The translations under genes were made by a program, and so were the position numbers. DNA of 64,000 bases from Streptomyces rubradiris (GTDB lineage: Bacteria; Actinomycetota; Actinomycetes; Streptomycetales; Streptomycetaceae): the NCBI RefSeq assembly GCF_016860525.1, contig NZ_BNEA01000015.1, positions 744,001 through 808,000 of the forward strand, written 5' to 3'. Shown piece by piece: positions 36,844 through 53,407 of the stretch; the first letter of the stretch is position 1; each line of letters starts with the position of its first letter. Under the pieces are notes generated by a model that had not been told where the DNA came from, did not search any database, and saw nothing but the letters and a program-made list of their open reading frames with translations.

Positions 36844-39800
36844 TCAAGTGCCCGCTTCCAGCCTTCTGTCAGCACCCCAGGCCTCATCGTGCAGATCTGG
36901 TTCCGCCGACAGCCCTGCCGCGTCCGCGACATCCGGGTCCACTTCGGCCTCATACTCTGCTGCACCACCGGCAGCCTGCTCCCCTGAGCTGTCGCTCTCG
37001 TCCTCCTCAGCCGATTCTCCCTCCGCGAACATGGGCAGAACATAAGCCTGAGCGAGCCCAGCCAGGTGAAGAGGCAGTGGTAGAGACAGCGACGCCGGAT
37101 AGTCCGGTGCTTGACGCAGTTGGTGCATGGCCAGGGCCAGCACCTCCGGCTCGTCGGGCTTCCCCGCCTGATCCGAGAAGTCGTCACTCGCATGACATCC
37201 AAGTACCGCGATCTCGACAAGGGCGGGGTTCCAGGCGCCTTTGCCCGCTTGCGAAACGAGGTTACCGGCCGCGGTGACTCTGGTGGCGAGCCTGTCGAGT
37301 GCAGGAGAGACCGGCTGGGATCCGGGGCGTTCCGTGGTGCTGTAGAACACCCTCTCGTCTGGCGAGCGCTGACCATCGCCGCTGATGTCCGCCGCCCAGA
37401 ATCCGGCCGGCTGCCCATTCGGCTCGCCCTTCTCCGCCAGGCCCCACCACTGGGCGGTCTCCCTCCCCGTCCGCCCGCGTACGCGCACCAGGCGGAGCTC
37501 GTCGTCGAGCCGTCCCGCGGGCGCATGTCCCGTCCGGAGGAGGTCCCGGATGACCTGACCATCCTGCAGCCACGGCCAGTGCAGCCTGCTGTTCTGGGCA
37601 TGAGTGATGAGGGCCGTGGGGCGTCCGCGCAGAGACTGAAGCATCCGCTGCAGGAAGCTTGCGGTCTCCTGGCGCTGCTGAGCCAGGTTGGCACGCCACT
37701 GTTTAGGGGTGACCCATCGCGCCTGTGGGCTCGTGCCGTCGCGCTGCCCGGGGATGGCAGGGGACGGCTCCGCGAACTCCTCCGGATCGATCTCGGCCTT
37801 TTTCACCAAGCTGAGCAGAAAGCGCGGATAGGGGATCCATTCGCAGGCGTCGTCATCCCACCCGCGGACCAATGCGAGGTCCGTGGCTTCCGGAAGCGGC
37901 GTGACGAGCACGGCGACTGGCAGATGCCTGGGCAAGCGGGTGGGGCCGTCCTTGCGCCGCTTCACCATCCACAGCGCGGCGTACTGAAGATCGTTGGGAA
38001 GGTCGGCACCGAGCGTGTGCTGGGGCAGTACGCGCACACCGAGCTGCCGCAGTCCGTCCAGCCAGGCATTGTGGGCTCGGTGCTCCAGACTGTCGGCGTT
38101 GTCGATCCCGCGTTCCTCGGAGGATGTGACAACGAACTGCGTCAGGAGCCCGGCGTCGGCGCAGCCGAGGCGGATGGCGAACTTCGGGTCCGTCTCGCGG
38201 GGTTTGAAGGTGCTACGGTGTGCGATCTCGACCAGGGCGAGTCCGGGGCGAGACGGGTCGGCCCCGTCCCGGCTCAGCCATTCGCGGAGATCGCGTCGGC
38301 GCCGCATGATCCCGTCGGCGATGCGCGCTCCCTTTCCCTTGACCACCGCATCGGGGCGCAGCCGGTCACCGAGCCCGTCGGCCAGCGGCAGACAGCGCAA
38401 CCTCAGGATCAGTTCCGGTGTCTGCCACTCCAACACGACAGGTGAGCCAGGGCGGGCCTCGTCGAAGTCCTGGTCCGTCACCCCGGCGCTGTCCGGGTCG
38501 CCGGGACCGTCCAGGCCGAGTGCCTGGGCGAAGGCCGTGACTCCCTGGCGTCGTACCTCGGCGGTCTGCCACAGCAGCCGGGCCTCCACGACAGGACGTC
38601 CGGTGTCGGTGGAGTCCAGACCGGTGAGGCGGGAAAGCGCAGCGAGGGCGGTGCGCCGGGCCTGAGCAGCGCGCAGCTCCTCGGCTTTTTTCTCCGCGTC
38701 GCCCTTCGGCTTGGCGCGCCGGTTCGCAGGGGCGGCGATGCCGCGTCCCCGACCGCGCACCAGGTCCGGAACGCGCACTACACCTTCGGGCAGCGCCTGC
38801 TCCGCCCACGCGGTGAGTTCGGACAGCTGGTGCGTCATAAGGCCCCGGCCCACCTCGTGGACACCCATGCGGGTGCTGTGGACCACGCAGGCGCGTACCC
38901 CGGGACCGTCCTTGATCCACTCGGTGGGTTCCGAGAGGAGCTGGTCGATGTCCGGAAAGTGACCGGTGACGCTGAGCGTGCGCAGGATGCCCGCCGGGTC
39001 GTTCTCGACCCAGGCGAATCCGTCGGAGTCCCGGTCGCGCCGAAGGCGGGCCAGAGCGTACCGCTCGGTGGCCGGCGCACCGGGCAGCCAGGGGATGCGC
39101 GGCCGGAGATAGATGGTGGTCGCCTCACGGTACGGAAGATTCAGACGCTTGGTGTCCGCCCTCGGGTGTGTGGCCCACCGACGTACGCCCCAGTGGAAGT
39201 GCAACCGGGGCCGGGGGTCGAACGGGGTGGTGTGCAGGGAGATGTTCAGCACGATGGAGAACCACCATTCCCTGCGCTTGATCGTGCGGCTCAGGGGCTG
39301 GGACATCAGCTCGGCCCCCTGGTCGCGGGGGCCTCGGGGGAGCGCGCGGAAGCGGAGCTCACCACCGTCGAAGGGGTACGGATCCAACGTGAGAATCCGG
39401 CGCGCGAGCGCGTCGGTCGCGAGCTGGAACTGCCGGGGTTCCGGAGCGGCCGTGCCGCCCTTCGTGGGCGACGCGGCCAGCAACTCCACGCCACGCACCG
39501 GTTCCCACCCTGGGAGGTTCTGCTTCAACTCGGCACTACAACGGAGAAGAAGGGAGCGGAAGCCAGGGTCGTCTGCCGCTCCCGTGGGCCCGAGTGTGCG
39601 CAGCCAGGCGTCGAGCAGCTTGCCCAGAGTCCCGTCCGGGAGCGGGTCCGGCGCCCCGTCCGGTACGTACATCCAGAAGTCGTCTGGGGGCATGGCCCCT
39701 TGGCCCACAGGCGGTTTGGGCCGCGGCCGGACGACGATGTCGGGTGCGAGCGTCTGCAGTACGGCGTCCAGGCGCCGGGTGGGGACGGTCTTGTGCCGCT

Positions 39801-39939
39801 TGTCCTCGTCACGCCCGTGGTTGTGGAGTTCCAGCAGTCCTTGTTGCCAGTGCTCGGGAAACCGGAGCGCGCGGAAGTCCTCTGTCCAGGCTCCTTCGTC
39901 GCTCAGGTGGTAGGCGGCTCTGCGGATCTTCTTGTACAT
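36844..39939 (-). CDS. pPIWI_RE-family Argonaute relative
   Basis: A 1031-residue protein that I read as a pPIWI_RE protein. The N-terminal third (YKKIRRAAYHLSDEGAW, RREWWFSIVLNISLHTTPF, LHFHWGVRRW) matches the X domain of that family. A MID-like and an RNase H/PIWI-like region follow (LALVEIAHRSTFKPRETDPK, PTRLPRHLPVAVLVTPLPEA, PTALITHAQNSRLHWPWLQD). Glu909 in NPALVEIAVL is a candidate for the conserved E, and LSLPLPLHLAGLAQAYV is the expected C-terminal block. An acidic tail runs from about 971. AGGAGG precedes the ATG by five bases. It is the last gene of a four-gene operon, 80 bases after the helicase. The family is proposed to guide restriction of invading DNA. Catalysis and guide type are not shown here. 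Confidence 0.8.
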   Translation of the reverse strand: MYKKIRRAAYHLSDEGAWTEDFRALRFPEHWQQGLLELHNHGRDEDKRHKTVPTRRLDAVLQTLAPDIVVRPRPKPPVGQGAMPPDDFWMYVPDGAPDPLPDGTLGKLLDAWLRTLGPTGAADDPGFRSLLLRCSAELKQNLPGWEPVRGVELLAASPTKGGTAAPEPRQFQLATDALARRILTLDPYPFDGGELRFRALPRGPRDQGAELMSQPLSRTIKRREWWFSIVLNISLHTTPFDPRPRLHFHWGVRRWATHPRADTKRLNLPYREATTIYLRPRIPWLPGAPATERYALARLRRDRDSDGFAWVENDPAGILRTLSVTGHFPDIDQLLSEPTEWIKDGPGVRACVVHSTRMGVHEVGRGLMTHQLSELTAWAEQALPEGVVRVPDLVRGRGRGIAAPANRRAKPKGDAEKKAEELRAAQARRTALAALSRLTGLDSTDTGRPVVEARLLWQTAEVRRQGVTAFAQALGLDGPGDPDSAGVTDQDFDEARPGSPVVLEWQTPELILRLRCLPLADGLGDRLRPDAVVKGKGARIADGIMRRRRDLREWLSRDGADPSRPGLALVEIAHRSTFKPRETDPKFAIRLGCADAGLLTQFVVTSSEERGIDNADSLEHRAHNAWLDGLRQLGVRVLPQHTLGADLPNDLQYAALWMVKRRKDGPTRLPRHLPVAVLVTPLPEATDLALVRGWDDDACEWIPYPRFLLSLVKKAEIDPEEFAEPSPAIPGQRDGTSPQARWVTPKQWRANLAQQRQETASFLQRMLQSLRGRPTALITHAQNSRLHWPWLQDGQVIRDLLRTGHAPAGRLDDELRLVRVRGRTGRETAQWWGLAEKGEPNGQPAGFWAADISGDGQRSPDERVFYSTTERPGSQPVSPALDRLATRVTAAGNLVSQAGKGAWNPALVEIAVLGCHASDDFSDQAGKPDEPEVLALAMHQLRQAPDYPASLSLPLPLHLAGLAQAYVLPMFAEGESAEEDESDSSGEQAAGGAAEYEAEVDPDVADAAGLSAEPDLHDEAWGADRRLEAGT

Positions 39940-40019
39940 GTGTTCCTCCTTCAGGCGGGATGCGGGAGCGGAAAGCTCAGCGGGTGGATCCGTCGGCTCC
40001 CTGCTGAGCGGCTACAGCG

Positions 40020-43000
40020 TCACCGGGGTGGGTCCTCGCGGGTCTGTACGCCGATGCCGCACAGGGCCTCGTACAGGGGCTGGTAGAGCAGCCTGACCAG
40101 TGCGGGGTCAGATGGGTCTGGAAACCTTCCCGGGTCGATGCCTGGGGCGAAGTAGGGAGCCAATACGTCCCGCAACCTGACCAGCAGGCCGGGATCGTCG
40201 AGCCAACGAGGGAGTCGCCCCGACGAGAGCCTCCGAGTCCGTTCGGAGGCAAGCCGAGGGGCGAACGCGGCATCGACGAACACGACACGCGCCGGCACGC
40301 CGCCGCGTACCAGACGGCCGATCACCTGCCAGATGGTGACCAACTGGTCCCACGCGAAAGAGGTCTTCTCCTTGTCGGACAACGCTGAGTAGATGTAGCG
40401 CCGCGACAGCAGATGCCGCCATACCGCGCGGGCGGTCGCCCGGAAGGCGCCACCCGCTGCGTTGAGGCCCCCGGCCTTGCTTACCAGCTCGCCGAAGGTG
40501 CCCTGATCAAGTCCGGGCTGGTTACGTGCGAAGCGCGTGGCCCAGTCGTTGACGGCGAAGACAGCGAGGGACAGGTCGTCGGGGCGCGGATGCGGGCGGG
40601 CAAGGAAGAACACCGTCCCGAACGCGGCTACCCGCTCCTCGCCCGGACGCTGCGGTGCCGTGAGGATGTTGTGTCCGCGTTCGATGGCCAACAGTGGGGC
40701 CACTAGCAGTTCGGCGTCCGGATCATCGGCGAAGGAGGCGAGGTCGCCACGCCGCACGGCGCCCGCCCGGGGGCCTTGAGTGGCAGCCGGGGCCTCGCCG
40801 TCGACTGCCGCCTCCAGCTCGGCGTCGTCCGCGACGAGCACGCGGACCCGCCCCCGCCAGCGCGGGATCTCGTCCAGGCAGTCGGCTGCCACCGATGCCT
40901 CCCGGTAGCTGCCCACGAGGAGCAGCGCACGGCGGCGCCGTTCGTCTGCGATCTGCGCGAGTTCACGCTGGAGCGGGCCCGCACTGCCGTCGCGGCGGGG
41001 TCGTGCCAGCCGGTGTACGAGCATGCGCAGAACATCGTCGCGTTTGTCGGGGTCCTGTCCGGACAGGCGGATCGGGCGCCCCGCGTCGTCGTACTGGAAC
41101 TCTGTGCGGAATACGGTGTCCCGGATGGAGCGGAGTGCCTGTGGTTGTGGCTTGAGCACCGCTCGCACAGGGGCGAGCACGTGGGCACGGGTCGAGGTGC
41201 CTGCCCAGCTGGTGCCCGACATCAGCAGCACATGTGGTCCGTTCACGTCGTGTTCCGGGTCGGCGCCGAGCTGCGGAAGGGAGAGAAGGAGTTCCCGGCC
41301 CACTCCGGCGCACCGGAAAAAGCGCAGGGTCCCGGTGCGCCGACCGTCGCGCTCTGTCCCCGTATCCCGCTCCTCAATCAGGTACTGAAAGCCGATCACG
41401 TTCCCCATGGGGGCCTCGGGCAGCAGGGGGGCGTAGTCGAGGGGCGGTCGCCGGGTGAGGTCGTGTCCCCCCGGATCGAGCCGCAGGGCCGCCTCGACTT
41501 GGGGCCACAAGAAAGTGACACGGTCCAGGCGCTGGTGGAGCGCGGCGAGGATGAGGGTGAACTCCAGTCGGCGTGCGTTTGCTTCCAGCCAGGCATCCGT
41601 CAGGGGGACGTCTTCAGGGGCAGTCTTCCCCTGGGCGCCAGATGCCTGAGCCGGCCTCTGGTCCGGGCCCGGTGCACCGTCGAGAAGGTCCTCCAGCAGG
41701 CCGCGAACTCGGCGACGGGTGTGCCTCTCGTTGAGTGTGTGCAGCAGATCCTGTGCGAGGTCGGCCATCGCGTCCGCGGCCGTGCCGTGCGGCCCTCGAT
41801 CACCGAGCGGGTCGTCGCGGAAGGTGTCGAAAAGCTTGGTCACCTCGTCGCGGCGGGCGGCCCACGGGTCGCCGACCGCAGCAGGGGCGTCACCTGTCCC
41901 TGTGTCCAGGCCCTCGTCGTCACCGTAGAGGTCGGCCTCGTCCTCGATGTCGTATTCGCCGTCGGCCTCCCCCTCTCTCCGTGCAGGCGGGTACCAGGCG
42001 TGGAGCAGCTTCTCCTGAAGGGTCCAGGCGCTGAAATAGTCGATCTGCACCCACTTCCGCAGCTTCGCGTCCCCGATGAGTATGGCGTACAGCCGGTCGG
42101 CTGCGGAGCCTACGACATCCAGGGCGGCGGAGAAGCGTTCGACGTCCTGGTCGGACAGCTGGAGGCGACCCTGCCGGGCCAGCTCCGCGATCTCGTGCGT
42201 CTGCAGCTGGTCCAGCCAGGATTCGAGCCCCTTCGTTACCAGAGTGGCCGAGGGTGCGAACATTTGGTCGAGTTGCATCTGCACCCGGTCGGCCTCGTCC
42301 ACGATCACGATGTCGCTCCGCAGACAGGCCAGCTCCAGGTAGCGCAGCCGCTCGGCGTTGAGCTGGCGTGGCACCGGGGTCTGGACGAGACTCGCCGGGT
42401 TGGCCACCCAGATGAGCGCGTCCACGAGGTCCCTGGCCGCGGAGTGGCGGGGACAGGCGCTCCAGAGTGGGCAAGCGTGCGGGTCCCGGAGCTCCTCCAG
42501 GTCCGAGCCGTCGCCGAAGTCCTCGGAGCCACTGTCGTCGGGGCGTTCGCCGCGGGCTCGGGCGAGTTCCCGGGTGATCCTGGCGGCCGTGGACTCGTCC
42601 TTCCCGTCCTGCTGACGGACCGGGTGGAGGCTGCCGCACGGTGCGTCCGCGTAGCGCAGGGGTGCGGCCGAGTCGAGGACGCGCAGGGCATCCAGGGGAC
42701 ACGCGGTGCTCAGATGGGTGAACGCAGAGCTGGTGTGGGTGAGCAGGGAGTGTCCGCCGCGGCTGGCGAGCCGACGGTGGAGCCGCTGAGTGTGCTGCTG
42801 CCGGGTGGTGCCGCCCTGGACGATCGCCGCGCGCAGACCGAGTCCGCGGAACAGTGCGGTCAGCGCCAGCTGTTCCGCGACGTCACCGACGACGAGCGTC
42901 GTACGCAGGCCCTTGCGGTGCGCCCACACCGCGAGCAGCGTCATCAGGGTCGATTTTCCGGCGCCGACCATTCCCACGAGGTGCGTGAGTTGGTCGAGCG

Positions 43001-43745
43001 GCAGAGCGTCGGCCTTCTCGAACCCTGTTCCGTCGGCGGTGCGGGTGTCCAGTTCCAGTCGCGACAGGCGCTCGGCCCAGTTGCCCGGCTTCAGACCGCG
43101 CGTGCGCTCCGCCTCATCCATCCACTGTGCGATCCCCGCGAGTTCGGCGAGGGACACGTTCAACCGCGTCGATCGGCCAGGGCGTCCGGCGCCGAGGTCG
43201 TGACCCGATGGCGGATCGAGAACCAGGTCGGCCGACAGCGTGACGGATGTATACCTGCGGCGGTCCACTAAACGGTACGTGCCCTCGCTCGCCTGCGGAA
43301 GCGGATTGCTGGCGTAGTCGGGTAGCCGGCTCAGAGCGGTGTCGTACACCTCGAAGCGGTGTGCGGCCACGGGCGGACTGACGCGCCGGGCAGGACCGCC
43401 GCCGGGCGGGACACGGTAGCCACGCAGCCGCTCCGGCAGGTCGAGATAGGCCTCCAGGCTCTGCTGCCAGACGCGGTGGCGGCGCATGGGCCACAGCAGG
43501 TGACGGGCAGCGGTCAGCGCCAGTTCGTCGGCGGGGCGGGTGACGAGTCCGGCGGCTCGGGCGAAGGGGTAGCCGCCGAGGAGCACCCAGGTGCCATCGA
43601 CGGAGAGGCCCGGATCGAGAGTTTCCAGCAGACGCAGGCCCAGTTCGACCTGACACAGAAGCGCGGGCTTCGTTCCCGCGTGTTCCTGCGGCCAGGGGCC
43701 GAAGTCCTTGACGAGCTGCTGGTACCAGCCGTTGCGATCACGCAC
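40020..43745 (-). CDS. DinG/XPD-like helicase of the pPIWI_RE island with four conserved-type cysteines
   Basis: A large helicase, 1241 residues from the GTG at 43745. I chose that start because GGAG lies six bases before it and the resulting GTGCGTGA overlap with the endonuclease stop copies the eight-base overlap seen one gene upstream. The open frame itself runs to 43814. An N-terminal domain (CQVELGLRLL, LLGGYPFARA) may be the island-specific Z-type domain. Walker A GMVGAGKST is at about 261-266 and Walker B IVIVDEADR at about 483-486. Cys349, Cys370, Cys425 and Cys431 lie between them, where DinG/XPD helicases bind a 4Fe-4S cluster. The C-terminal part has the helicase block VIGRLVRGGVPARVVFVDAA. 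It should unwind or remodel nucleic acid for the PIWI protein. Confidence 0.8.
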   Translation of the reverse strand: MRDRNGWYQQLVKDFGPWPQEHAGTKPALLCQVELGLRLLETLDPGLSVDGTWVLLGGYPFARAAGLVTRPADELALTAARHLLWPMRRHRVWQQSLEAYLDLPERLRGYRVPPGGGPARRVSPPVAAHRFEVYDTALSRLPDYASNPLPQASEGTYRLVDRRRYTSVTLSADLVLDPPSGHDLGAGRPGRSTRLNVSLAELAGIAQWMDEAERTRGLKPGNWAERLSRLELDTRTADGTGFEKADALPLDQLTHLVGMVGAGKSTLMTLLAVWAHRKGLRTTLVVGDVAEQLALTALFRGLGLRAAIVQGGTTRQQHTQRLHRRLASRGGHSLLTHTSSAFTHLSTACPLDALRVLDSAAPLRYADAPCGSLHPVRQQDGKDESTAARITRELARARGERPDDSGSEDFGDGSDLEELRDPHACPLWSACPRHSAARDLVDALIWVANPASLVQTPVPRQLNAERLRYLELACLRSDIVIVDEADRVQMQLDQMFAPSATLVTKGLESWLDQLQTHEIAELARQGRLQLSDQDVERFSAALDVVGSAADRLYAILIGDAKLRKWVQIDYFSAWTLQEKLLHAWYPPARREGEADGEYDIEDEADLYGDDEGLDTGTGDAPAAVGDPWAARRDEVTKLFDTFRDDPLGDRGPHGTAADAMADLAQDLLHTLNERHTRRRVRGLLEDLLDGAPGPDQRPAQASGAQGKTAPEDVPLTDAWLEANARRLEFTLILAALHQRLDRVTFLWPQVEAALRLDPGGHDLTRRPPLDYAPLLPEAPMGNVIGFQYLIEERDTGTERDGRRTGTLRFFRCAGVGRELLLSLPQLGADPEHDVNGPHVLLMSGTSWAGTSTRAHVLAPVRAVLKPQPQALRSIRDTVFRTEFQYDDAGRPIRLSGQDPDKRDDVLRMLVHRLARPRRDGSAGPLQRELAQIADERRRRALLLVGSYREASVAADCLDEIPRWRGRVRVLVADDAELEAAVDGEAPAATQGPRAGAVRRGDLASFADDPDAELLVAPLLAIERGHNILTAPQRPGEERVAAFGTVFFLARPHPRPDDLSLAVFAVNDWATRFARNQPGLDQGTFGELVSKAGGLNAAGGAFRATARAVWRHLLSRRYIYSALSDKEKTSFAWDQLVTIWQVIGRLVRGGVPARVVFVDAAFAPRLASERTRRLSSGRLPRWLDDPGLLVRLRDVLAPYFAPGIDPGRFPDPSDPALVRLLYQPLYEALCGIGVQTREDPPR

Positions 43746-44931
43746 CTTTTGCTCCTGCTCCTTCTGCTTCCGCGGTCGACGGAGCGATACGAGCCTCGGG
43801 CCCTCGCTCGCCACGCAACCGAAACCGCGCCGCCTTCACTAGCTGTTCGTCCGTCAGCAGCCGCAGGCCGCCGGCGGACGCCGGGCGCTCCTGGTCGAAA
43901 ACGTCGAGATAGTCCCGCCGCGTGCGCACCCGGAACCGCGGTACCACCCAGCAGGCCTCGTGGTAGGGCGGCTCCGGTCGGACGGGCTCCGCAGTGCTGC
44001 CGAGCAGCCCGGGAAACGCCCAGTCCTTGACGTCGACGGCCCACACGTACCCGTCGGGAAAGGTGATCCTCAGGTCGTACGCGTCGAACCCTGGCCACAT
44101 CTCCACGCCTAGTCCCAGGTCTCGTAGGGCCTGTTCCAGCTCGGTCTCCGCCCTGCCGGGGCCGGTCACGAACTGTCTGAGGGGCCTGCGCAGTTGGCGC
44201 AGCTCACCGGTTTCGGCCGGGTCGAGCAGGCGGCCGTGCGGTGCGTCTCCTTCATGCCGGCACTGGTCCCGTTCGCACCACCAACCGCCTCCGGCCAGCG
44301 GTGTGAGTAGGGTCAGGCACCGCCCGCAGGTGAGGTAGGAGCCGTCCCTACGGTGACTGGCGGGCACCGGCGCATAGATCTCCTCGATCAGGAACCTCAC
44401 CGGATCGAGGAACAGGTCCGTGCTGACGTCGGACCACTCGGCCTCGGTGAGCACAGGGCGGTCGACGAGCAGGCGGCGGAACGCCGTGTACGACTCGGGG
44501 GACGAGGCGTCGCGGCATGCCCGCATGGCTTCATGGACGACAAGTCGGTCGTACTGGCGAGCGGTGCTGCCGCCGCGCCCCTCGACGGCCAGTTCCTGGC
44601 AGAGCTGTGTCGGCTCCCCCGAGTCCTCGTCGATCAGCCGGTCGTCGCCGGTGAAGAGCCCGTCGGGTAGCCGGTCGAGCGGCCAGCTGCCCAGCGGCCG
44701 TGTGCGGCACCACCGGACCATCTCGGGCACCCCGGCCGGCGGACGTGCGCCGTTGCGCAGGCACTGCAGCACGAGCGCGTCCAGGGCCCTCTGGGCATCG
44801 GCCGGATAAGGCAGCCTGAAGGAGTCGAGCCGGGTAACCGCGTCGAGCCGAACGACGGCGGTCGCGACATCACGCAGCAGAACGACGTCCGGGTTGGCAA
44901 GCCAGTCAGGAAGATGCGGTCGATCAGTCAT
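43738..44931 (-). CDS. PD-(D/E)xK endonuclease with zinc ribbon, pPIWI_RE island REase
   Basis: A 397-residue protein. A helical N-terminal domain (DWLANPDVVLLRDVATAVVR) leads to a zinc ribbon with Cys202, Cys205, Cys219 and Cys224 (TCGRCLTLL, WWCERDQC). The nuclease core follows: TELEQALRDLG with Glu264, AYDLRITFPDG with Asp286, and VWAVDVKDWA with Asp300 and Lys302. This E...D...DxK order is that of restriction-type endonucleases and matches the REase named with pPIWI_RE proteins. Both ends overlap neighbours by eight bases (ATGACTGA with the nuclease gene, GTGCGTGA with the helicase). It is probably the DNA-cutting subunit, which is inferred. Confidence 0.82.
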   Translation of the reverse strand: MTDRPHLPDWLANPDVVLLRDVATAVVRLDAVTRLDSFRLPYPADAQRALDALVLQCLRNGARPPAGVPEMVRWCRTRPLGSWPLDRLPDGLFTGDDRLIDEDSGEPTQLCQELAVEGRGGSTARQYDRLVVHEAMRACRDASSPESYTAFRRLLVDRPVLTEAEWSDVSTDLFLDPVRFLIEEIYAPVPASHRRDGSYLTCGRCLTLLTPLAGGGWWCERDQCRHEGDAPHGRLLDPAETGELRQLRRPLRQFVTGPGRAETELEQALRDLGLGVEMWPGFDAYDLRITFPDGYVWAVDVKDWAFPGLLGSTAEPVRPEPPYHEACWVVPRFRVRTRRDYLDVFDQERPASAGGLRLLTDEQLVKAARFRLRGERGPEARIAPSTAEAEGAGAKGA

Positions 44932-46675
44932 GCGGGTTCCCTCGATCGGGGTCCCAGGCCGACGCATCCTCCAGCGTGCCGGTGGCACGCGGATGATCGG
45001 CCGTGTAGGCGGTGCCGGGACCGCACCAGGTGCGTGCCTGGCAGCCGTGGCAGTGCCGCCCCGTCCTGGGTTCGTACGACGTGTCGTTCAGCAGGGGCTG
45101 GGCGATCTCGGCGATGACCTCGCGGGCCTCTGTGACGGTCTCCGGATGGGCAGGGTCGATACGTTCCAGGCGACTGAGGCCCCGGTCAGCTCGCAGGTGC
45201 TCCAGCTCGATCCAGGAACGCCGCGCCCCGGTGCCGACGGCTCCGGCGGAGAACAGCAGTACCGCCAGCGCGAGCTGTGGATATGACCGCAGGAGGGACC
45301 GCCCCTCCCACAGAGGCCGGGAGGAGGTCTTGGTCTCCCGCCAGATCCACCGGCCGCGGAAGGTGTACAGGAGGTCGGGCACGGCCAGGACGACGACGTC
45401 GAGTTCAGGGACGTAGGCGGTCACCGTGTGCTGCACAAGCACCTGCTCCTCGGGGGCGATCCCGTCCAGAGGGCACAGCGCGCGGTGCTCGTCGAGCATC
45501 CGGGCGGCCTCCCACGCCGACGGACCGTCCAGGTTGTACTCCCCTGCCACCTCGAATTCGTCGGGGCGGGGCAGGCTCCGGCACGTGCGCGCAGGGCGTA
45601 CGGAGTGCCGCTTGTTCAGCCAGTCGTCGACGGCCCGGCCCCGGCGTGCGCCGTCGCCCTCCTCGGCCAGGTTGTCGAGGTGGAGCCGTCGGACCAAGTG
45701 GTACTGGGCCGGGCACTCGCCGTACAGGCGCAGGTCCCAGGCGGACAGAGAGCGCCGTTTGTGGGCCTGCGTCGAAGGCGTGCCTCCCCACAGATCCGGG
45801 GTCCTGCGCAGCGCGGTGCACCGGCTGATGCCCTTGCACTCGACGCAGCTCTCGCCGGGTCGCGTGCCGGTCCCGGTGGCCACATGGTGGAAGACAGGTG
45901 CGGTGTCGGCGGTAAAGCGCTCCGCCGCCTGCGCGGACCTCCAGTCCAGCAGCAGGGTGGCACTGCCGTCCGCGCACCCGAAGTCGAACACGCGCACCCG
46001 GTCCGGTGGACGCCCGGGGTTGGTCGGCGCCTCAGGCGGAGCGACACGGGCTCGGCGCCGAGGAGTCTCCTCGCCTTTGGCCATGACATGGGCGATGGCA
46101 GCCTTCTCCGCCGCTGGACGGTCTTCCTTGGCTCTACCCAGCGACGGAATCCAGAGCTCCCTGAGGGAGCCGTCCGCGGACGCGTAGGGTCGGCCCCAGA
46201 CGGTGTGCTCGTACTGCCGTGCCCCACGTGCGTCGGGCACCTCCCGCCGGGCGGTGCGCACCGTCCATCCCGACCGGACCGGCGCGGTCGATGGCAGCCC
46301 TGCCGCCCTGGCCTGCGACTGCTCACGCTCACGGGCGACGGCATACCGTTCCAGCGCCTGCGCTGTCCACTCCAGCAGGGCCGGATGCACGACTGCGCCA
46401 CGTCCGCGGAATACCCCACGAGTACTGCGGAGTTCGGCGAGCACCCGCCCAAGTGGCCACCCTTCGTGTTCCCAGAGGTCGAGCGCGGCGAACAGGGGCC
46501 CGAACGCGAACTCCTCGCGTGGTGCGGGGCGAAACGGTGTGGGCGGATCCGCGGTGACCATCGGCCGCACGGCGGTCCGCAGGTGGGATGGGCAGGCGGC
46601 GGGAGCCGGACGGGCGTGTCTGGGGCTCACTTTGATCAGCCATCCGTGCCCTGCGGTTCCCGGCGGATTCTGCAT
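44924..46675 (-). CDS. Cas4/AddB-like Fe-S PD-(D/E)xK nuclease, first gene of the pPIWI_RE operon
   Basis: A 583-residue protein. The ATG at 46675 follows GGGGGA by four bases. Residues 1-300 are of unknown type and include a CxxCxxxxxC triad (277, 280, 286). The nuclease half begins with SAWDLRLYGECP (Cys321), has VVLAVPDLLYTF with Asp434, IWRETKTSS with Glu447 and Lys449, then the QxxxL-type YPQLALAV, and ends with HCHGCQARTWC (Cys542, 545 and 551). One cysteine before the core and three after it is the iron-staple layout of AddB, Cas4 and Dna2. Such nucleases trim single-stranded ends. It is not one of the three standard pPIWI_RE genes but is tightly coupled to them. Confidence 0.78.
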   Translation of the reverse strand: MQNPPGTAGHGWLIKVSPRHARPAPAACPSHLRTAVRPMVTADPPTPFRPAPREEFAFGPLFAALDLWEHEGWPLGRVLAELRSTRGVFRGRGAVVHPALLEWTAQALERYAVAREREQSQARAAGLPSTAPVRSGWTVRTARREVPDARGARQYEHTVWGRPYASADGSLRELWIPSLGRAKEDRPAAEKAAIAHVMAKGEETPRRRARVAPPEAPTNPGRPPDRVRVFDFGCADGSATLLLDWRSAQAAERFTADTAPVFHHVATGTGTRPGESCVECKGISRCTALRRTPDLWGGTPSTQAHKRRSLSAWDLRLYGECPAQYHLVRRLHLDNLAEEGDGARRGRAVDDWLNKRHSVRPARTCRSLPRPDEFEVAGEYNLDGPSAWEAARMLDEHRALCPLDGIAPEEQVLVQHTVTAYVPELDVVVLAVPDLLYTFRGRWIWRETKTSSRPLWEGRSLLRSYPQLALAVLLFSAGAVGTGARRSWIELEHLRADRGLSRLERIDPAHPETVTEAREVIAEIAQPLLNDTSYEPRTGRHCHGCQARTWCGPGTAYTADHPRATGTLEDASAWDPDRGNPHD

Positions 46676-46772
46676 TGATTCCCCCTGGTGAGGACAGCGC
46701 GAGCGATCGAGGACAGGGCTCAGCCGGAACGCAGGCAACGCTCCAGCGTGCACTTCACAATGCCATAAATCT

Positions 46773-46787
46773 GTGAACTAAGTCCAT
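46773..46787. promoter_or_regulatory. Island operator candidate, copy 1 (imperfect)
   Basis: GTGAACTAAGTCCAT matches 12 of 15 bases of the perfect inverted repeat at 53275. It lies in the 185-base gap between the pPIWI_RE operon (minus) and kinase 1 (plus), 97 bases before the nuclease start and 73 before the kinase start. A TACGCT hexamer at 46817-46822 could be a -10 box for the kinase. Confidence 0.5.
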
Positions 46788-46860: not shown

Positions 46861-48333
46861 GTGGTGGACAGCGGTTCACAGGAGTTCCGCGCGGGCGAAG
46901 TGGTCGAGGGTCGCTACGAGTTGGCCGAGTCGATCGGCAAGGGCGGCATGGCGCAGGTGTGGCGTGCCGCAGACCGCGAAACCGGTCTCGACGTAGCGGT
47001 GAAGTTCCTCCGCCCTGACTCAGAGGACCTGCGCCAGCTCGACACCCTCGCGCGGCAGGAGGAACTCGACGTGCTCCGTGCCCGATTCCGGCGCGAGACA
47101 ATGCTCCTGGGCAGGCTGGACCACCCGGGCATCCCGGAGCTCTATGGGCACGGGTCGCACCGGGGAATGCCGTACATGGCGATGCGCCACGTCCCCGGTG
47201 TGAACCTGCACAAGTTCCTCGGCGAGCACGGCCCGCTCACGCTCACCGTGGCCGCCGCCGTCGCGGCGCAGGTGGCGGACGCCCTGGCCTGCGCGCACAC
47301 GCTGCCCGTGGTGCACCGGGACCTCAAGCCGCAGAACATCATGATCTCGGACGACGGTGTCGCCGTCCTCATCGACTTCGGCATCGCCAAGCCCTTGGGA
47401 ATGGGCGTCACTCAGTACACACGGCACGGCTCGACACTGGGGAGCCGCGGCTACCAGGCGCCAGAGCAGATCCTGGAGAAGGAGCCCACCACTCGCACCG
47501 ACGTCTACTGCTTCGGTTGTGTCTGCTACGAGCTCTTCGTCGGCCGACCACCTTTCGTCGCCGACGGGACGAAGGGCATGGTCGAGCAGCACCTGCACGA
47601 CGACCCTCTGCCCCTCGCGGTCCACGCCGCCGGAATTCCCGGCTCCCTGGACGACCTTGTGCTCCGGATGCTCGCCAAGGCCCCCGAGCGCCGGCCGACC
47701 GTCGAAGAGGTCCGAGAGGTCCTGGCCGCGCTGACGCCACGCCCTGGTGATCCCGAACCGCGTCCGCGGCTGAAGCGCGATCCCACGGCGCCCTTCCGGC
47801 TCCCGCGGGAGCGGCCGATCCGTCGGCAGCCGCCCGCTCCCTCGCCGTCCGCTCCCGCGGCTCACGACGAGTGGCTCGACGCGCGTGCCGTCGAGAAGCT
47901 GTGCGACGAGGCTCAGCGGGAGATTCACGACGGCGACCCAGACCACGCAGTACGTCGGCTTGAAGGGCTCGCAGAACGGGCGCGCGACGAGTGGGGATCA
48001 CGGCGGCCGTTGGTCCGCCGGGTCTGGGAGCTTACGGCGGAGGGCCTGCGCCTGGCCGGGGAGTGCGGCCCGGCCGCCCGCTTCTACGAGAGCATCGCGA
48101 GCGAACTCGTGCACGGCGACGGTCCCGAGGAACGGGCGTGCCGGGCGGTGCTGCGGCTGCGGGCGGCCGAGTGCCGGCTCGCGTTCGGCGAGATCGAGGA
48201 GGCGATCGCCGCTGTGGAGGCGGCAGGCCACGTGGCGGCCGGGCTGCCCGCCTCACTGGCGGCGCGCGTGGAGGAGGTACGCCGCGAGGTCGACCTCGAC
48301 GTCACCGAACGGCTCGCCGGTCCGGAGTCCTGA
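46861..48333 (+). CDS. Soluble Ser/Thr protein kinase with C-terminal helical-repeat region (kinase 1)
   Basis: A 490-residue Hanks-type kinase. The Gly loop is ESIGKGGMAQVW, the ATP Lys is Lys48, HRDLKPQN holds the catalytic Asp154, and IDFGIAKP holds the metal-binding Asp172. GSRGYQAPEQIL is the activation-loop end. After a Pro-rich linker (about 290-330), residues 335-490 form amphipathic helices like TPR repeats (HDEWLDARAVEKLCDEAQRE region). There is no membrane span and no PASTA domain. The GTG at 46861 follows GGAGGGGCGCA. Divergent from the pPIWI_RE operon and convergent with the methylase. A regulatory or toxic role in the island is inferred. Confidence 0.88.
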   Translation: MVDSGSQEFRAGEVVEGRYELAESIGKGGMAQVWRAADRETGLDVAVKFLRPDSEDLRQLDTLARQEELDVLRARFRRETMLLGRLDHPGIPELYGHGSHRGMPYMAMRHVPGVNLHKFLGEHGPLTLTVAAAVAAQVADALACAHTLPVVHRDLKPQNIMISDDGVAVLIDFGIAKPLGMGVTQYTRHGSTLGSRGYQAPEQILEKEPTTRTDVYCFGCVCYELFVGRPPFVADGTKGMVEQHLHDDPLPLAVHAAGIPGSLDDLVLRMLAKAPERRPTVEEVREVLAALTPRPGDPEPRPRLKRDPTAPFRLPRERPIRRQPPAPSPSAPAAHDEWLDARAVEKLCDEAQREIHDGDPDHAVRRLEGLAERARDEWGSRRPLVRRVWELTAEGLRLAGECGPAARFYESIASELVHGDGPEERACRAVLRLRAAECRLAFGEIEEAIAAVEAAGHVAAGLPASLAARVEEVRREVDLDVTERLAGPES

Positions 48334-48469: not shown

Positions 48470-50512
48470 TCATGCCTCGGCAGTCATCCGCCCGGCGGCC
48501 AGCTCATCAGCGAGGTCGCGAACGAGTCCGGTTCCGAGGGTGTGCAGTTGTCTGACGGTCTTCTCGAAGTCCGCCACCTGCCGGAAAACCTCACCGTAAC
48601 GCCGCTGTTCCGCCAGGCCGATCTGGCGGACCTGCAGTTTGCGGACGTCCACGCGCGAGGAACTCGACGCGTGGGTACCGGCCTGGCGAGCGTTGGCAGG
48701 AGCCCGCAGCGATCCCGCGAGGAACCAGGCGTCGAGTTGGTCCGGATGCACCGTGAGCGCGTACAGCTGGGGCCCGAGGGCCGTCGGCGGGCCGTCGTGG
48801 ACCCAGGCGGCGAAAGCCCTCGCCACACCGACCACGATGACATCCCCCGGTTGCGCGAGGACAGCTGCTGTCGCCTCGGCATCCGCCCGGGTCAGCCAGC
48901 CATGGGGCTCACCGTCCATCAGCAGGTCGGGCACCGTCAGCAGGGGAACGCCGTCGTCGGCAGGCCGACCTTCACAAACCGTCCCCTCCGTCGGCTGCTG
49001 CCCTCCGCGCAGAGTGAGTGCTTCCGCGCGGGCAAGTTCACCCACGGTCGTGGTCGGCTGTGCACCGGCCTCGCCGCCGGCGAATTCGAGGGAGGACAAG
49101 TGCCCGCCCGTGTCCCCGAGAGCGGCCACTAGCCGGTCGAATTCCTTCCACGATTCCGCCCGTTGGGAGCCGACTGCGGACGGCGGCGGCGTGATGTGAC
49201 GCCCGGGCGTCAGATCGACTTCGTCGTCGAGAAGGTCGATGACCGGTAGCGAGGTGACGAACTGCGGCCGCGTGTCTGCCCGCTCGCCCGGTTGACCTGC
49301 CGCGCCGAGCGCCGACCGGACGAACGCGGCGAGTGCTCCCCAGTCGGGTACGGCATCGTGTGCGGACGTCCTCGGAAAGCGGGAAGCGGCGTCGACGAGC
49401 AGTAGCTCCCCAGAGCCCTGCGGACCTGAGCCGAACCGAGGCATGTACAGCACCCACAACTGGAGCGAGACGCTGTGTGGTGCCGCACAGCCCGGGGGCA
49501 GAGCCACGACGGCCCGCAACAGCCCGGAGCGCAGCAGCGACCCCCTAATCCTCCTGCCCGCCCTGCGAGAGGCCACCGCCGGCGGCAGGAGAACCACCGC
49601 GGCACCACCCGGTTCCAAGCGGGCGACACAGTGCTGCACCCAGGCGAGTTCGGGTTCGGTGCGGGGTGGCATCCCGTGCACCCAACGCGCGTCTGTAGCG
49701 AGTTCCTCATAACCCCAGTCCCGCTCGTTGAACGGGGGGTTGCACAGCACCACGTCCGCTCGGACATCGGCCAGGGGATCCGCGCGCAGCGAATCCGCGG
49801 ACCGGACATCCGCCGTGATGGACCCCTCGGCGGTTCGGGACAGCAAAGCGAGACGGGCGTCCGCCAGTGCGGCCAGCACCGGGTCGCGGTCGCAGCCGAG
49901 CAGGGTGACCGGCGCGTGGGCGGCGGCGGCCGCGGCGAGCAGGTGCCCCGTACCACACCCGGGGTCGAGCACGGTGTGGATGTCGCCGTGCCCGCCGGCG
50001 TCCGCGCCCAACCGCACCCCCTGGGCGAGATCGACCATGAGCGCGGCGAGCGGTTCTGGCGTTGTGCTGATCTGCCGTACGTTGGCGTCGAGCCAGCGCC
50101 GCAGCAGGAACTCGAAGGCGTCCGACGGGCCCTCACGCCGCCCGAGATTCGCCGCCTTCTGCGCCAACTCGCGCGCCTCGGCAGAGAGATGTATGCCCAC
50201 AGGTCCGTGTGCGTCGCCGCTCATGAGGCGGCCCGCGGCCGCGATGGCGAAGCCTGTGGCATCACGGCCACCCAGCGCCTCGAACTGCGGCCAGAGCCAC
50301 TCGCGCTCCGCGGCTTTCTTCAACTTGCCATTGTCACGCAGCCATGCCTCGATCTCGGTCAGTGAGAATTGTGGGCTCACGTCCGTGCCGCCGATACGGG
50401 CGGGAAACGACTCGTGCCGACGGCGCCAGTTACTTACGGCGGCACGTCCCACACCAGCAAGCCGCGCGATTTCGGCCAAGGTTACTGGCACGGCGGGCGT
50501 CGTCGACACCAT
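48470..50512 (-). CDS. N6-adenine DNA methylase with N-terminal HTH and specificity-like C-terminus
   Basis: A 680-residue protein. Residues 10-60 form an HTH (TLAEIARLAGVGRAAVSNWR). The methylase has motif I VLDPGCGTGHLL at about 181-192 and the catalytic NPPF at 258-261 (CNPPFNERDWG), the type I HsdM-like form. From about 480 the sequence resembles an HsdS half (LTLRGGQQPTEG, VPLLTVPDLLMDG, VDVRKLQVRQIGLAEQRRY and a final coiled coil). It may therefore recognise and methylate DNA alone. I chose ATG at 50512 because GGGAG stands five bases before it. No HsdR gene is adjacent. It is divergent from kinase 2 and convergent with kinase 1. Confidence 0.86.
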   Translation of the reverse strand: MVSTTPAVPVTLAEIARLAGVGRAAVSNWRRRHESFPARIGGTDVSPQFSLTEIEAWLRDNGKLKKAAEREWLWPQFEALGGRDATGFAIAAAGRLMSGDAHGPVGIHLSAEARELAQKAANLGRREGPSDAFEFLLRRWLDANVRQISTTPEPLAALMVDLAQGVRLGADAGGHGDIHTVLDPGCGTGHLLAAAAAAHAPVTLLGCDRDPVLAALADARLALLSRTAEGSITADVRSADSLRADPLADVRADVVLCNPPFNERDWGYEELATDARWVHGMPPRTEPELAWVQHCVARLEPGGAAVVLLPPAVASRRAGRRIRGSLLRSGLLRAVVALPPGCAAPHSVSLQLWVLYMPRFGSGPQGSGELLLVDAASRFPRTSAHDAVPDWGALAAFVRSALGAAGQPGERADTRPQFVTSLPVIDLLDDEVDLTPGRHITPPPSAVGSQRAESWKEFDRLVAALGDTGGHLSSLEFAGGEAGAQPTTTVGELARAEALTLRGGQQPTEGTVCEGRPADDGVPLLTVPDLLMDGEPHGWLTRADAEATAAVLAQPGDVIVVGVARAFAAWVHDGPPTALGPQLYALTVHPDQLDAWFLAGSLRAPANARQAGTHASSSSRVDVRKLQVRQIGLAEQRRYGEVFRQVADFEKTVRQLHTLGTGLVRDLADELAAGRMTAEA

Positions 50513-50610
50513 GGATCTCCCTGGCACTCCGATGAAAAACGACCATTCGACTTCCTAGGTGCTCAAAACAAGCCACCCTGCCCCGCCCTGCCTGTCAGGC
50601 TACTACGCCC

Positions 50611-50625
50611 GTTGACTTTGTTCAC
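50611..50625. promoter_or_regulatory. Island operator candidate, copy 2 (imperfect)
   Basis: GTTGACTTTGTTCAC matches 12 of 15 bases of the perfect site at 53275, with the right half GTTCAC identical. It lies in the 243-base gap between the methylase (minus) and kinase 2 (plus). It contains TTGACT, which could also be a -35 box. Confidence 0.5.
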
Positions 50626-50755
50626 AGTCCGCAAAGCGCCGAATCGGATGGCATCTGGCCATACGATCGCTCCTTACGGAGTCCACCACACGCGGCGGAC
50701 GAGGTCGTGGAAGACCACGGTCGGCAGTCTTCGGCGGAGTAGGAGAGGGAAGGCC

Positions 50756-51694
50756 ATGCCCACCCCACACAAAGGCCCCGTGCTCGGGGAGCGTTACCGC
50801 CTGGAGCGCCCGCTCGGCCGGGGCAGCATGGGACGCGTCTGGGAGGGGCGTGACCTGCGGCTGGGGCGCCGGGTCGCCGTCAAGACGGTCATCGTGGATC
50901 CCGAGGCCGACCCTGACGACCAGGAGCGTTTCCGACGCCGCTTCGACCGTGAGGCCAGGGCCGCCGCGGCACTGGACAGTGCCAATGTCGCGACCGTATT
51001 CGACGCGGGCGTCACTGACGGCGAGCACTGGCTCGTGATGCAGCTCGTGGAGGGGGCAACGCTGGGTGAAGCACTGGACGAGCGCGGGCCGCTCGACGTG
51101 CACTCGGCCGCCGCCACAGGGGCCCAGATCTGTGCCGGTCTGGCCGCGGCGCATGCGGCGGGGCTCGTGCACCGCGATCTCAAACCCGAGAACGTCATGA
51201 TCCGCCGCGACGGCGTCGTGAAGATCCTCGACTTCGGGCTGGTGAAGCTGGTGGCGGACAACGGCCCCACTCTCACGGCGACCGGGCAGCAACCAGGCAA
51301 CCTCCTGTACGCCTCCCCCGAGCTGCTGTCCGGGGAACCGCCTCTGGACGGCCGCAGTGACCTCTACAGCGTCGGCTGCCTGCTGCACCACCTGTTGGCA
51401 GGCGCCCCTCCGTTCCCGCCCGGCGCGCCCATGGCCGTGCTGCACCGGCACCTGAACCAGCCCCCGCCCGCACTATCGGACCTCGGTGTGGACGTGCCGG
51501 ACCGCCTGCAGGCGCTGCTCTTCTCACTCATGGCCAAGGAACGTGACGACCGCCCCGGCTCGGCGGCCGATGTCTACACCGCCCTCGGCCCCTGGCTGCC
51601 CGCCTCCTCGGCGGGGCTCTCGGCGGCGCACCGGTTCGGCCCCGAGGACCCCGCCCGTCCGTTCGTCCTGCCGCAGGGTCCTTACCCACTGTGA
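50756..51694 (+). CDS. Minimal soluble Ser/Thr protein kinase (kinase 2)
   Basis: A 312-residue kinase made almost only of the catalytic domain: Gly loop RPLGRGSMGRVW, Lys43, HRDLKPEN with Asp141, LDFGLVK with Asp159, and YASPELLSGEP. A tail of about 40 residues is disordered. There is no membrane span or sensor domain. GGAGAGGGAAGG precedes the ATG at 50756. It is followed by kinase 3 on the same strand after 91 bases, so the two may form one transcript. Confidence 0.88.
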   Translation: MPTPHKGPVLGERYRLERPLGRGSMGRVWEGRDLRLGRRVAVKTVIVDPEADPDDQERFRRRFDREARAAAALDSANVATVFDAGVTDGEHWLVMQLVEGATLGEALDERGPLDVHSAAATGAQICAGLAAAHAAGLVHRDLKPENVMIRRDGVVKILDFGLVKLVADNGPTLTATGQQPGNLLYASPELLSGEPPLDGRSDLYSVGCLLHHLLAGAPPFPPGAPMAVLHRHLNQPPPALSDLGVDVPDRLQALLFSLMAKERDDRPGSAADVYTALGPWLPASSAGLSAAHRFGPEDPARPFVLPQGPYPL

Positions 51695-51785
51695 TGCGGC
51701 CGCTACGTGCGCAGTTGCCCGGGGCAAGTGAGAAGATGCCGGGAGAGGGCGCACGCACAGACGGGACTCAGGGGGCCGAAGAGGC

Positions 51786-53267: not shown

Positions 53268-53274
53268 GGCATGC

Positions 53275-53289
53275 GTGAACTATGTTCAC
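53275..53289. promoter_or_regulatory. Island operator candidate, copy 3 (perfect inverted repeat)
   Basis: GTGAAC-TAT-GTTCAC is a perfect 6-3-6 inverted repeat eight bases after the kinase 3 stop and 118 bases before the SNF2 helicase start. TTCACA (53285-53290) and TACGCT (53307-53312), 16 bases apart, form a possible promoter that the palindrome would cover. Related sites stand at 46773 and 50611. Confidence 0.6.
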
Positions 53290-53407
53290 ACACACCTAAG
53301 CTCTGTTACGCTCCCCTTCTCAGAGCCCGCGCCAAGTGTTCCGAATTGCGTAGGCTCAGCGCCGTACGTACAGGGCGCGTACCGGCAAGGGAAAGGGAGC
53401 GGCGGGC

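Follow-up and report, generated by a model that had tools for sequence, protein, structure and literature searches.

The pPIWI-RE system was described in 2013 as a set of three genes, headed by that of a restriction endonuclease (REase) and devoid of a methylase; in the main text of that report the terms 'Cas4', 'RecB' and 'Fe-S' (iron-sulfur) have zero occurrences (Burroughs, Iyer and Aravind, 2013; PMC3702460). Though the system was described in 2013, no established biological mechanism for it was found in the literature searched. Here we analyse a pPIWI-RE locus in a 64,000-nt stretch of Streptomyces rubradiris DNA (GCF_016860525.1, NZ_BNEA01000015.1:744,001-808,000), called the window below, whose numbering is used throughout. 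As judged from the main text of PMC3702460, the locus shares with the published triad a Y-domain/zinc-ribbon REase, a Z-domain DinG helicase and a pPIWI_RE protein (PIWI), encoded in the same order by close or overlapping genes. It differs in a leading fourth gene, which encodes a nuclease (NUC), and, in this lineage, in the presence of a protein kinase and a DNA methyltransferase (MTase).

Our preferred reading, to which we assign a probability of roughly 0.55, is that the four genes encode a four-enzyme pPIWI-RE defence effector led by a RecB/AdnA/Cas4-like Fe-S nuclease, and that this effector is here tied to the MTase and the kinase. Since NUC comes first in the operon and the MTase accompanies a sub-clade of such loci, the REase-first, methylase-free description does not apply, and the locus is a variant rather than a typical representative of the pPIWI-RE system. 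Novelty cannot be claimed for the nuclease itself, because PADLOC-DB (2023) contains it as PprPDDEXK and Cas4-family partners of other Argonautes are known. Such Cas4-like partners of other (long) Argonautes are on record in PDB titles and in the part of PMC10653904 drawn on here. A first-pass annotation of the window had placed the nuclease outside the published description; this holds for the triad of the 2013 paper, but not for PADLOC-DB 2.0.0. The newer result is the partnership with MTase and kinase and the operator shared with a DISARM system, as against the published "no methylase" picture. The titles and abstract openings listed, in a collection that excludes most subscription papers and preprints, name neither the clade of four-gene loci (quartets) nor the MTase-kinase partner nor the DISARM-shared operator.

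Gene layout and family assignment

The minus-strand genes follow each other in the order NUC, REase, DinG helicase, PIWI, and their open reading frame coordinates describe one overlapping operon. The NUC-REase overlap is ATGACTGA (44931-44924), that of REase and DinG GTGCGTGA (43745-43738), and an 80-nt spacer (39940-40019) separates DinG from PIWI. The NUC start at 46675 is also kept in most of the related loci aligned. The four coupled genes, two eight-base overlaps and 80-base gap of the first-pass annotation agree with these coordinates. Its operon of four genes stands too, but the island reaches past the limits it had drawn, to the kinase and the methyltransferase.

The 1031-aa PIWI protein matches the Pfam families pPIWI_RE_X (434 bits), MID_pPIWI_RE (138 bits) and RNaseH_pPIWI_RE (265 bits), the helicase matches pPIWI_RE_Z (184 bits), and the REase matches pPIWI_RE_Y (197 bits) and pPIWI_RE_REase (135 bits). 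These strong matches uphold the initial identification of the last three genes with the published triad, and of the 1031-residue protein with the pPIWI_RE families. For NUC the Pfam match is PDDEXK_1, at 68.8 bits. All four quartet proteins match Ppr models of PADLOC-DB at 441-1281 bits: PprPIWI (1281), PprDinG (1010), PprRE (441) and PprPDDEXK (600). No Ppr model appeared for the kinase and the MTase among the best 25 of 37 and the best 25 of 33 matches.

Distribution and co-inheritance of the nuclease

Searching genome contigs with the PIWI protein, we found 36 actinobacterial loci (the named loci) from Streptomyces, Nocardia, Umezawaea, Micromonospora, Actinoplanes and others, and NUC was found in 33 of them. 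The three without it are L031, where no more than 130 nt of contig precede the first DinG match, L033, which has lost the 5' half of the operon and has a truncated REase, and L036, where PIWI is a remnant. REase and DinG were looked for and not found in L035, which is counted as NUC-positive. Since such a search favours close relatives, we then used the REase Y domain as an anchor across 392 Streptomyces genomes, annotating the places found with profiles built from the named loci. A Y-domain match over the cut-off was present in 72 genomes, at 76 distinct places including the window. NUC lies directly upstream of the REase at 55 of these places, and at 53 of the 54 that also match the PIWI profile (the exception is L191), which is more than chance would give and bears out the expectation that the nuclease would recur in related operons. 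In 50 of the 53 quartets a candidate in-frame start of the REase overlaps the NUC stop codon or is at most 30 nt away from it. Places without a PIWI profile match are divergent; in L199 and L192, the two checked, the third gene is a PprPIWI according to PADLOC. NUC was not found at 21 of the 76 places, of which L190 and L211, with under roughly 1 kb of contig ahead of the REase, do not count as evidence of absence. Our own profiles missed the REase at 4 and DinG at 3 of the 76.

In the reverse test, all 25 full-length matches of the PprPDDEXK profile in 150 Streptomyces genomes adjoin a REase place, adjacency being judged by eye from coordinates. Three further matches were weak (20-24 bits) and fell in long proteins; the one examined has UvrD_C and PDDEXK_1 domains. 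In a DinG tree of 82 rows, a clade of 57 (Shimodaira-Hasegawa-like approximate likelihood ratio 100) unites 56 NUC loci with L031, which is cut by a contig end. NUC is thus mostly limited to one actinobacterial branch. The divergent triads L192 and L193 also carry NUC, which implies more than one gain or exchange; the DinG tree, whose long branches leave deep positions unsure, needs three changes. An unusually long frame in L193 turned out to be an out-of-frame upstream extension of the ordinary helicase frame. NUC was not present in the five plasmid triads checked, from Nostoc, Aulosira, Calothrix, Azospirillum and one Streptomyces plasmid (L095, L214, L215, L213, L212). We reject a purely local acquisition of NUC on the DinG clade, the 53 of 54 loci and the adjacency of all 25 full-length matches, and a universal pPIWI-RE component on its absence from these five plasmid triads and from Streptomyces places among the 21.

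Pairwise distances over 31 loci point in the same direction as the gene content. NUC correlates with DinG at r 0.977 and with PIWI at r 0.964, the triad genes correlate mutually at 0.969-0.973, and all distances among NUC, REase, DinG and PIWI at 0.963-0.977, in a comparison that retains the fragmented L188, is made without a housekeeping-gene control and spans identities falling to about 30%.

The genome of the window holds a second, diverged quartet (C1:541184-551070, in L073), with identities of 34% for PIWI, 41% for DinG and 34% for NUC and with a short divergent kinase; a methyltransferase like that of type A (defined below) was not found beside it. We had considered this second locus a pseudogene because of two stops inside the match, and dropped the idea when the PIWI match proved to lie inside one open frame. 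Distant NUC relatives (26-28% identity) occur on two plasmids without a triad (L096 11593-15295 and L097 11524-15095), where a hypothetical gene comes next, followed by an ImmA/IrrE peptidase gene on the opposite strand. A search of viral contigs for NUC and PIWI relatives confirmed none.

Which enzyme could cut

Residue conservation was counted over 59 quartet loci, L188 being excluded. The C-terminal domain of NUC carries D434, E447, K449 and Q467 in a catalytic pattern and the cysteines C321, C542, C545 and C551 in an Fe-S pattern. We take the four cysteines to be the Fe-S pattern of AddB and Cas4, and D434, E-x-K and Q467 presumably fit the RecB-type motifs. The N-terminal half has a cysteine set of its own (C28/C277/C280/C286), and H357, C365, H397 and C401 are a possible extra metal site. 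All of these residues, together with E490 and E492, are conserved in at least 97% of the loci.

An AlphaFold2 model of NUC (mean predicted local distance difference test, pLDDT, 90.3) has its strands and helices arranged alike in the two halves: strands 136-140, 154-158, 162-166 and 171-178, helix 188-200, strands 226-233 and 239-246 and helices 247-267 and 275-278 in the N-terminal half, and strands 418-422, 427-431, 435-439 and 442-450, helix 466-476, strands 488-494 and 502-506 and helices 511-530 and 540-544 in the C-terminal half. On account of this shared order in the model, the N-terminal half is very likely a degenerate copy of the C-terminal fold. Aligned to each other with hhalign, the two halves gave P 4e-4 (probability 35%), against 0.14-0.62 for five column shuffles.

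A Foldseek search of the NUC model against the PDB returned 18 matches at E <= 0.001, with AdnA as the best and with ACE1, the Cas4-type SSO0001, RecE, EXO5, Dna2, MGME1 and AddAB among the best structures. A PDB sequence search with the NUC profile gave a single chance match (E 0.91). The initial labelling of the first gene as an Fe-S Cas4/AddB-like nuclease is therefore upheld in the sense of a RecB/AdnA/Cas4-type fold with a four-cysteine pattern and a predicted cluster. By its 68.8-bit match, its conserved D/ExK/Q motif and its Foldseek fold, NUC belongs with the RecB/AddB-type PDDEXK_1 nucleases. It is not placed in Cas4 itself: the match to PADLOC Cas4 is weak (E 0.0019) and covers only residues 468-579 of the 609-aa frame, and no cas gene was seen among the genes scanned at 34.9-63.6 kb. 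With RecB, AddB and AdnA the C-terminal half of NUC shares the catalytic and four-cysteine patterns; unlike them, NUC has no helicase domain and has an extra N-terminal half in which the fold order recurs with a separate cysteine set. With ACE1 (PDB 9iac, 9iab) it shares, going by the entry titles, a RecB/Cas4-type nuclease with an Argonaute-family partner (Foldseek E 4e-7 to 3e-6, template modelling score 0.56-0.62 by target length). ACE1 differs in its 266-269 solved residues, about half the length of NUC, and in lacking the second, N-terminal copy, and its titles name Argonaute, not pPIWI-RE, as the partner.

The REase retains its zinc-ribbon cysteines C202, C205 and C219 in all 59 loci, and its active-site residues D286, D300 and K302 in 45, 45 and 46 loci, respectively. 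D286, D300 and K302 are all lost in the 13 loci of type D, which retain the zinc-ribbon cysteines and the NUC active site; L161 has lost D286 and D300. Examples of type-D loci with a degenerate REase are L073, L165 and L182. The DinG helicase has a Walker A motif (GAGKST) and a DEAD box at 483, and K264, D483, E484 and D486 as well as cysteines 349, 370, 425 and 431 are kept in 59/59 loci; its PDB sequence search gave no match at E <= 1.

The PIWI profile found no PDB sequence at E <= 5, and Foldseek with the PIWI model gave 40 matches at E <= 0.001, titled as Argonaute or PIWI proteins. R816 and E909, kept in 57 and 56 of the 59 loci, we infer to be the hallmark R and E pair. In PsPIWI-RE, the sections of PMC10991935 drawn on here state, D525 and D610 are needed for cleavage and are retained in few family members. 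Placed by spacing, their equivalents in the window protein would lie in the first RNase H strand and at position 780; the model has strands at 673-681 and 775-780, in its poorly modelled part. Residues 677-679 are non-acidic, the modelled first RNase H strand (673-681) has no conserved acid, and position 780 is His in 41, Asp in 11 (8 of them type D) and Glu in 1 of the 59 loci. PIWI thus probably lacks the two catalytic Asp residues and would be unable to cut by itself. With the NUC residues kept and those of the REase lost in type D, the NUC active site appears as the most constant among the nucleases of the system. Given 13 loci in which the REase, unlike NUC, has no intact active site, and a PIWI that probably does not cut, NUC looks like the main cutter.

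Methyltransferase and kinase of the larger island

A divergent Ser/Thr protein kinase (STK) stands beside NUC in 33 of the 36 named loci, and the MTase is present in 32, in L017 and L019 beyond PIWI; L028 has the kinase and no MTase in the stretch examined. Among the 53 Streptomyces quartets, 25 have both MTase and kinase, 3 the MTase only, 14 a kinase only and 11 neither. Type A corresponds to one DinG sub-clade of 28 rows, in which all 27 testable loci have MTase and kinase and one is cut. Kinase residues K48, D154, N159 and D172 are kept in 28/28 type-A rows; in the NPPF motif of the MTase (at 263) the two prolines are kept in 28/28 and N263 in 24/28. An alternative ATG start of the window MTase lies at 50512. 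Over the 31 loci, MTase and STK distances correlate at 0.889-0.939 with those of the quartet and at 0.939 with each other.

Representatives of the other sub-clades have different neighbours. In type B the methyltransferase is reversed, with HsdM in L180. In one type-C quartet the place of kinase and MTase is taken by a divergent cassette that encodes an AAA protein and three proteins lacking a Pfam match (L163 2755-7896, minus strand), and L178 has a gene map similar to that of L163. In one type-D quartet a short kinase and a 943-aa NB-ARC/TPR protein adjoin NUC (L182 11222-15028).

A sample anchored on the MTase, comprising the 20 closest places in 150 genomes, contained the quartet at 10, drmD of class 1 DISARM at 8 (2 of them with both) and neither at 4; these counts hold within the fetched stretches, that of G116 being short. 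In an MTase tree the DISARM-linked forms are nested among the PIWI-linked ones, its rows having been picked mainly through PIWI.

An operator shared with DISARM

A complete class 1 DISARM system (drmD, drmMI, drmA, drmB, drmC) with two upstream kinases adjoins the quartet (50369-60936 and C15:811312-817807). A palindrome of about GTGAAC-N3-GTTCAC precedes the quartet, the MTase, drmD and drmA, and for this reason the quartet and DISARM probably share a regulon. With up to 2 mismatches allowed, GGACTNAGTTCACA occurs between the kinase and NUC genes of 23/23 survey loci of type A and of 32/33 named loci, as against 1/6 loci of type B, 0/11 of type C, 0/13 of type D and a mean of 0.05 loci after shuffling. 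The one named NUC locus without it is L028, which is also the one with a kinase and no MTase. In the 9.05-Mb genome of the window, the NUC-site pattern at up to 1 mismatch has 3 sites, all in the island (one preceding NUC, one at C15:809490 and one directly ahead of drmA), and its reversed control has 0. A related pattern has 8 sites at this stringency, 4 in the island, 1 inside a predicted window gene and another about 110 bp before a paralogous HTH (helix-turn-helix)-methyltransferase gene; at up to 2 mismatches it has 21 sites, compared with 8 for the control.

A weight matrix was built from 47 distinct NUC-upstream sites, one of them of type B, so that only its matches at the MTase, drmD and drmA are independent. 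The MTase promoter reaches at least 16 bits in 18/22 type-A loci, 9/9 DISARM or other loci of the same MTase clade and 1/5 type-B loci, with L153 outside the count. The matrix also finds the operator before 3/7 generic methyltransferases; that of the window's own genome scored 5.4 because the scan began inside the gene, its site being found by the genome pattern scan. Upstream of drmD at least 13.4 bits are reached in 7/8 loci with the MTase (the eighth, G085, has an interrupted drmD), in 1/9 loci without it in the fetched flank and in 0/6 with the flank not fetched. Here a threshold of about 13 is not strict, as among five shuffles of a single locus one came to 14 bits; L080, L081, L082, L084, L085 and L090 recur in this set under other locus ids and are counted once.

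The same type of HTH occurs at the MTase N-terminus in 22/23, 9/9, 5/5 and 4/4 loci, reading AVSNWR[RK]R[HY] among the rows listed. A precedent is offered by restriction-modification methyltransferases that carry a regulatory HTH domain (M.SsoII type). The simplest reading of the sites is that both effectors are controlled by the MTase, or by a regulator travelling with it, through this operator. LexA and CRP boxes were also considered and, on account of their spacing, judged not to fit, and a methylation target was set aside since sites within one mismatch are too few in the genome. If the operator result holds, two defence systems would be wired into one regulon, beyond mere clustering.

Proposed mechanism and alternatives

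On the preferred reading, of a four-enzyme effector tied to MTase and kinase, PIWI, probably non-cutting, would use a bound guide or an RNA-DNA hybrid to recognise foreign nucleic acid, the DinG helicase would open the target, the zinc-ribbon REase may nick it or make the first cut where its active site is kept, and NUC would degrade it. The type-A MTase would mark host DNA and so spare it, its HTH and the shared palindromic operator would probably set the timing of quartet and DISARM expression, and the kinase would tune the response. What the sequences themselves show is the gene content with its overlaps, the co-occurrence and co-inheritance of the genes, the shared operator and the conserved key residues of nuclease, helicase and kinase; a function in defence, the order of action, an inactive PIWI, the HTH as reader of the operator and methylation as the self mark are deduced. 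A near-constant nuclease, a probably dead PIWI, a REase losing its active site and an MTase with an operator thus make up a testable scheme of self mark, cutter and switch. It is tempting to go further and see in the one HTH-MTase both the self-marking enzyme and the master regulator of quartet and DISARM, with the kinases relaying an infection signal; we advance this bolder version tentatively, as the odds seem to us to lie against it. If true, guide-type restriction would be a methylation-licensed, co-regulated arm of a composite defence.

Several observations weigh against the preferred reading. Some pPIWI-RE systems manage without NUC, since it is absent from the five plasmid triads and from divergent Streptomyces triads. 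No MTase accompanies 24 of the 53 quartets (types C and D), so that methylation cannot be a general self mark; replacement of N263 in 4 of 28 type-A rows means that some of these MTases may be inactive, and only half of the 20 close MTase relatives have the quartet. The link between operator and MTase HTH is a correlation, and the kinase or another regulator could read the site; no fitting operator precedes the MTase in L094 (3.5 bits) and L158 (-2.1 bits). The PIWI model has a mean pLDDT of 64.8, with most of 789-908 below 50 and the RNaseH part of low confidence, and the Asp at position 780 in 11 loci means that the loss is not uniform. Finally, PsPIWI-RE, the one experimentally tested relative met in the literature searched, has a ciprofloxacin and cell-division phenotype and a weak guided cleavage of its own, as reported in the sections of PMC10991935 used here.

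The alternative that survives best, though we consider it unlikely, is that NUC makes guides, trimming or resecting DNA into single-stranded PIWI guides as Cas4 does on prespacers, and leaves destruction to the REase or PIWI. The RecB/Cas4-type fold, the Argonaute-associated ACE1 among the best Foldseek matches and the weak PADLOC Cas4 match would suit such a role, and PsPIWI-RE binds 21-nt DNA and RNA guides, according to the same part of PMC10991935. However, the plasmid triads examined from other phyla do without NUC, so guides can arise in its absence, and with the REase active site lost in type D and PIWI seemingly mostly non-cutting, NUC is left as the cutter.

Close behind, and likewise improbable in our view, comes the model put forward for the triad in the main text of PMC3702460, an R-loop-directed, methylase-free (Mcr-like) restriction, to which the neighbouring kinase and MTase would be separate. 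The 24 quartets without such a methyltransferase fit it. Yet the 27 testable loci of the type-A sub-clade keep MTase and kinase despite identities down to about 30% over the 31 loci, and the quartet promoter and the MTase carry the same operator.

We give distinctly less credit to the view that MTase, kinases and operator are parts of DISARM or form a module of their own, the quartet being a mere defence-island neighbour. It draws on the MTase with KIN2, KIN3 (two further kinases, Table 1) and drmD in the PIWI-free loci L080, L081, L082, L084, L085 and L251, and on the 10 close MTase relatives that have no quartet in the fetched stretch. DISARM indeed lies directly adjacent and has the same operator, but it is a separate effector, and 9 of 17 DISARM loci with a fetched flank lack the MTase, 8 of these 9 also lacking the operator. 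In addition, the DISARM-linked MTases are nested among the PIWI-linked ones in the tree, subject to its choice of rows, and type-A quartets with no drmD in the fetched flanks (e.g. L086, L089) still have the operator. A role in chromosome maintenance (replication, R-loop or gyrase-related) instead of defence, suggested by the PsPIWI-RE deletion phenotype in PMC10991935 as far as drawn on here, is very improbable given the patchy distribution (72 of 392 genomes), the location beside a complete DISARM and the fragmented or truncated remnants in some genomes (L188; L033, L035, L036).

Neighbouring features

The features of the window are collected in Table 1.

Table 1. Genes and operator-like elements of the pPIWI-RE/DISARM island in the window.
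Feature	Position	Strand	Description and matches
NUC	44924..46675	-	583-aa PD-(D/E)XK nuclease (PprPDDEXK); Pfam PDDEXK_1, PADLOC-DB
REase	43738..44931	-	pPIWI_RE_Y domain, zinc ribbon and REase domain; Pfam PF18156, PF18154; PprRE
DinG-type SF2 helicase	40020..43745	-	N-terminal Z domain, Pfam PF18155; PprDinG
pPIWI_RE protein	36844..39939	-	1031 aa; X, MID and RNaseH domains; Pfam PF13111, PF18157, PF13032
Operator-like element GGACTTAGTTCACA	46772..46785	-	between the divergent kinase and NUC genes
STK (Ser/Thr protein kinase)	46861..48333	+	divergent from NUC; Pfam Pkinase 152 bits
MTase (HTH-N6-adenine methyltransferase)	48470..50527	-	specificity-subunit-like C-terminus; N6_Mtase 97.5 bits, HTH_17 20 bits
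Operator copy GTTGACTTTGTTCACAG	50611..50627	+	between MTase and KIN2
Kinase 2 (KIN2)	50756..51694	+	Pfam Pkinase
Kinase 3 (KIN3)	51786..53267	+	Pfam Pkinase
Operator copy GTGAAC-TAT-GTTCAC	53275..53291	+	perfect palindrome just upstream of drmD
drmD	53408..56626	+	class 1 DISARM SNF2-like helicase; PADLOC DrmD 1412 bits
drmMI	56623..60936	+	DISARM methyltransferase; PADLOC DrmMI 1761 bits in a longer open frame

Among the best 25 PADLOC matches of each, the kinase matches PD-T4-6 and mad6 and the MTase matches type I methyltransferase models. An N6-adenine methyltransferase together with a Ser/Thr kinase is also a feature of BREX type 2/Pgl and MADS (mad6 225 bits, mad2 72, mad1 23); within the best 25 matches of each gene scanned, no further member of those gene sets turned up, and the effector here is pPIWI-RE. 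In other genomes, too, KIN2 has this MTase family and DISARM as neighbours. By PADLOC, drmA, drmB and drmC follow beyond the window (C15:811312-817807; L099 6313-12808). Between drmMI and drmA lies a plus-strand gene (61395-63563) for a 722-aa protein without a Pfam or PADLOC match, a relative of which (48% identity) is encoded near L102, a PIWI-free locus of the same MTase clade.

Paralogous HTH-methyltransferases with the same HTH are encoded in the window's own genome at C15:4819148 and in L069-L072. A similar upstream site is present in four of them, and in L069, L071 and L072 the methyltransferase gene is followed by a same-strand kinase gene.

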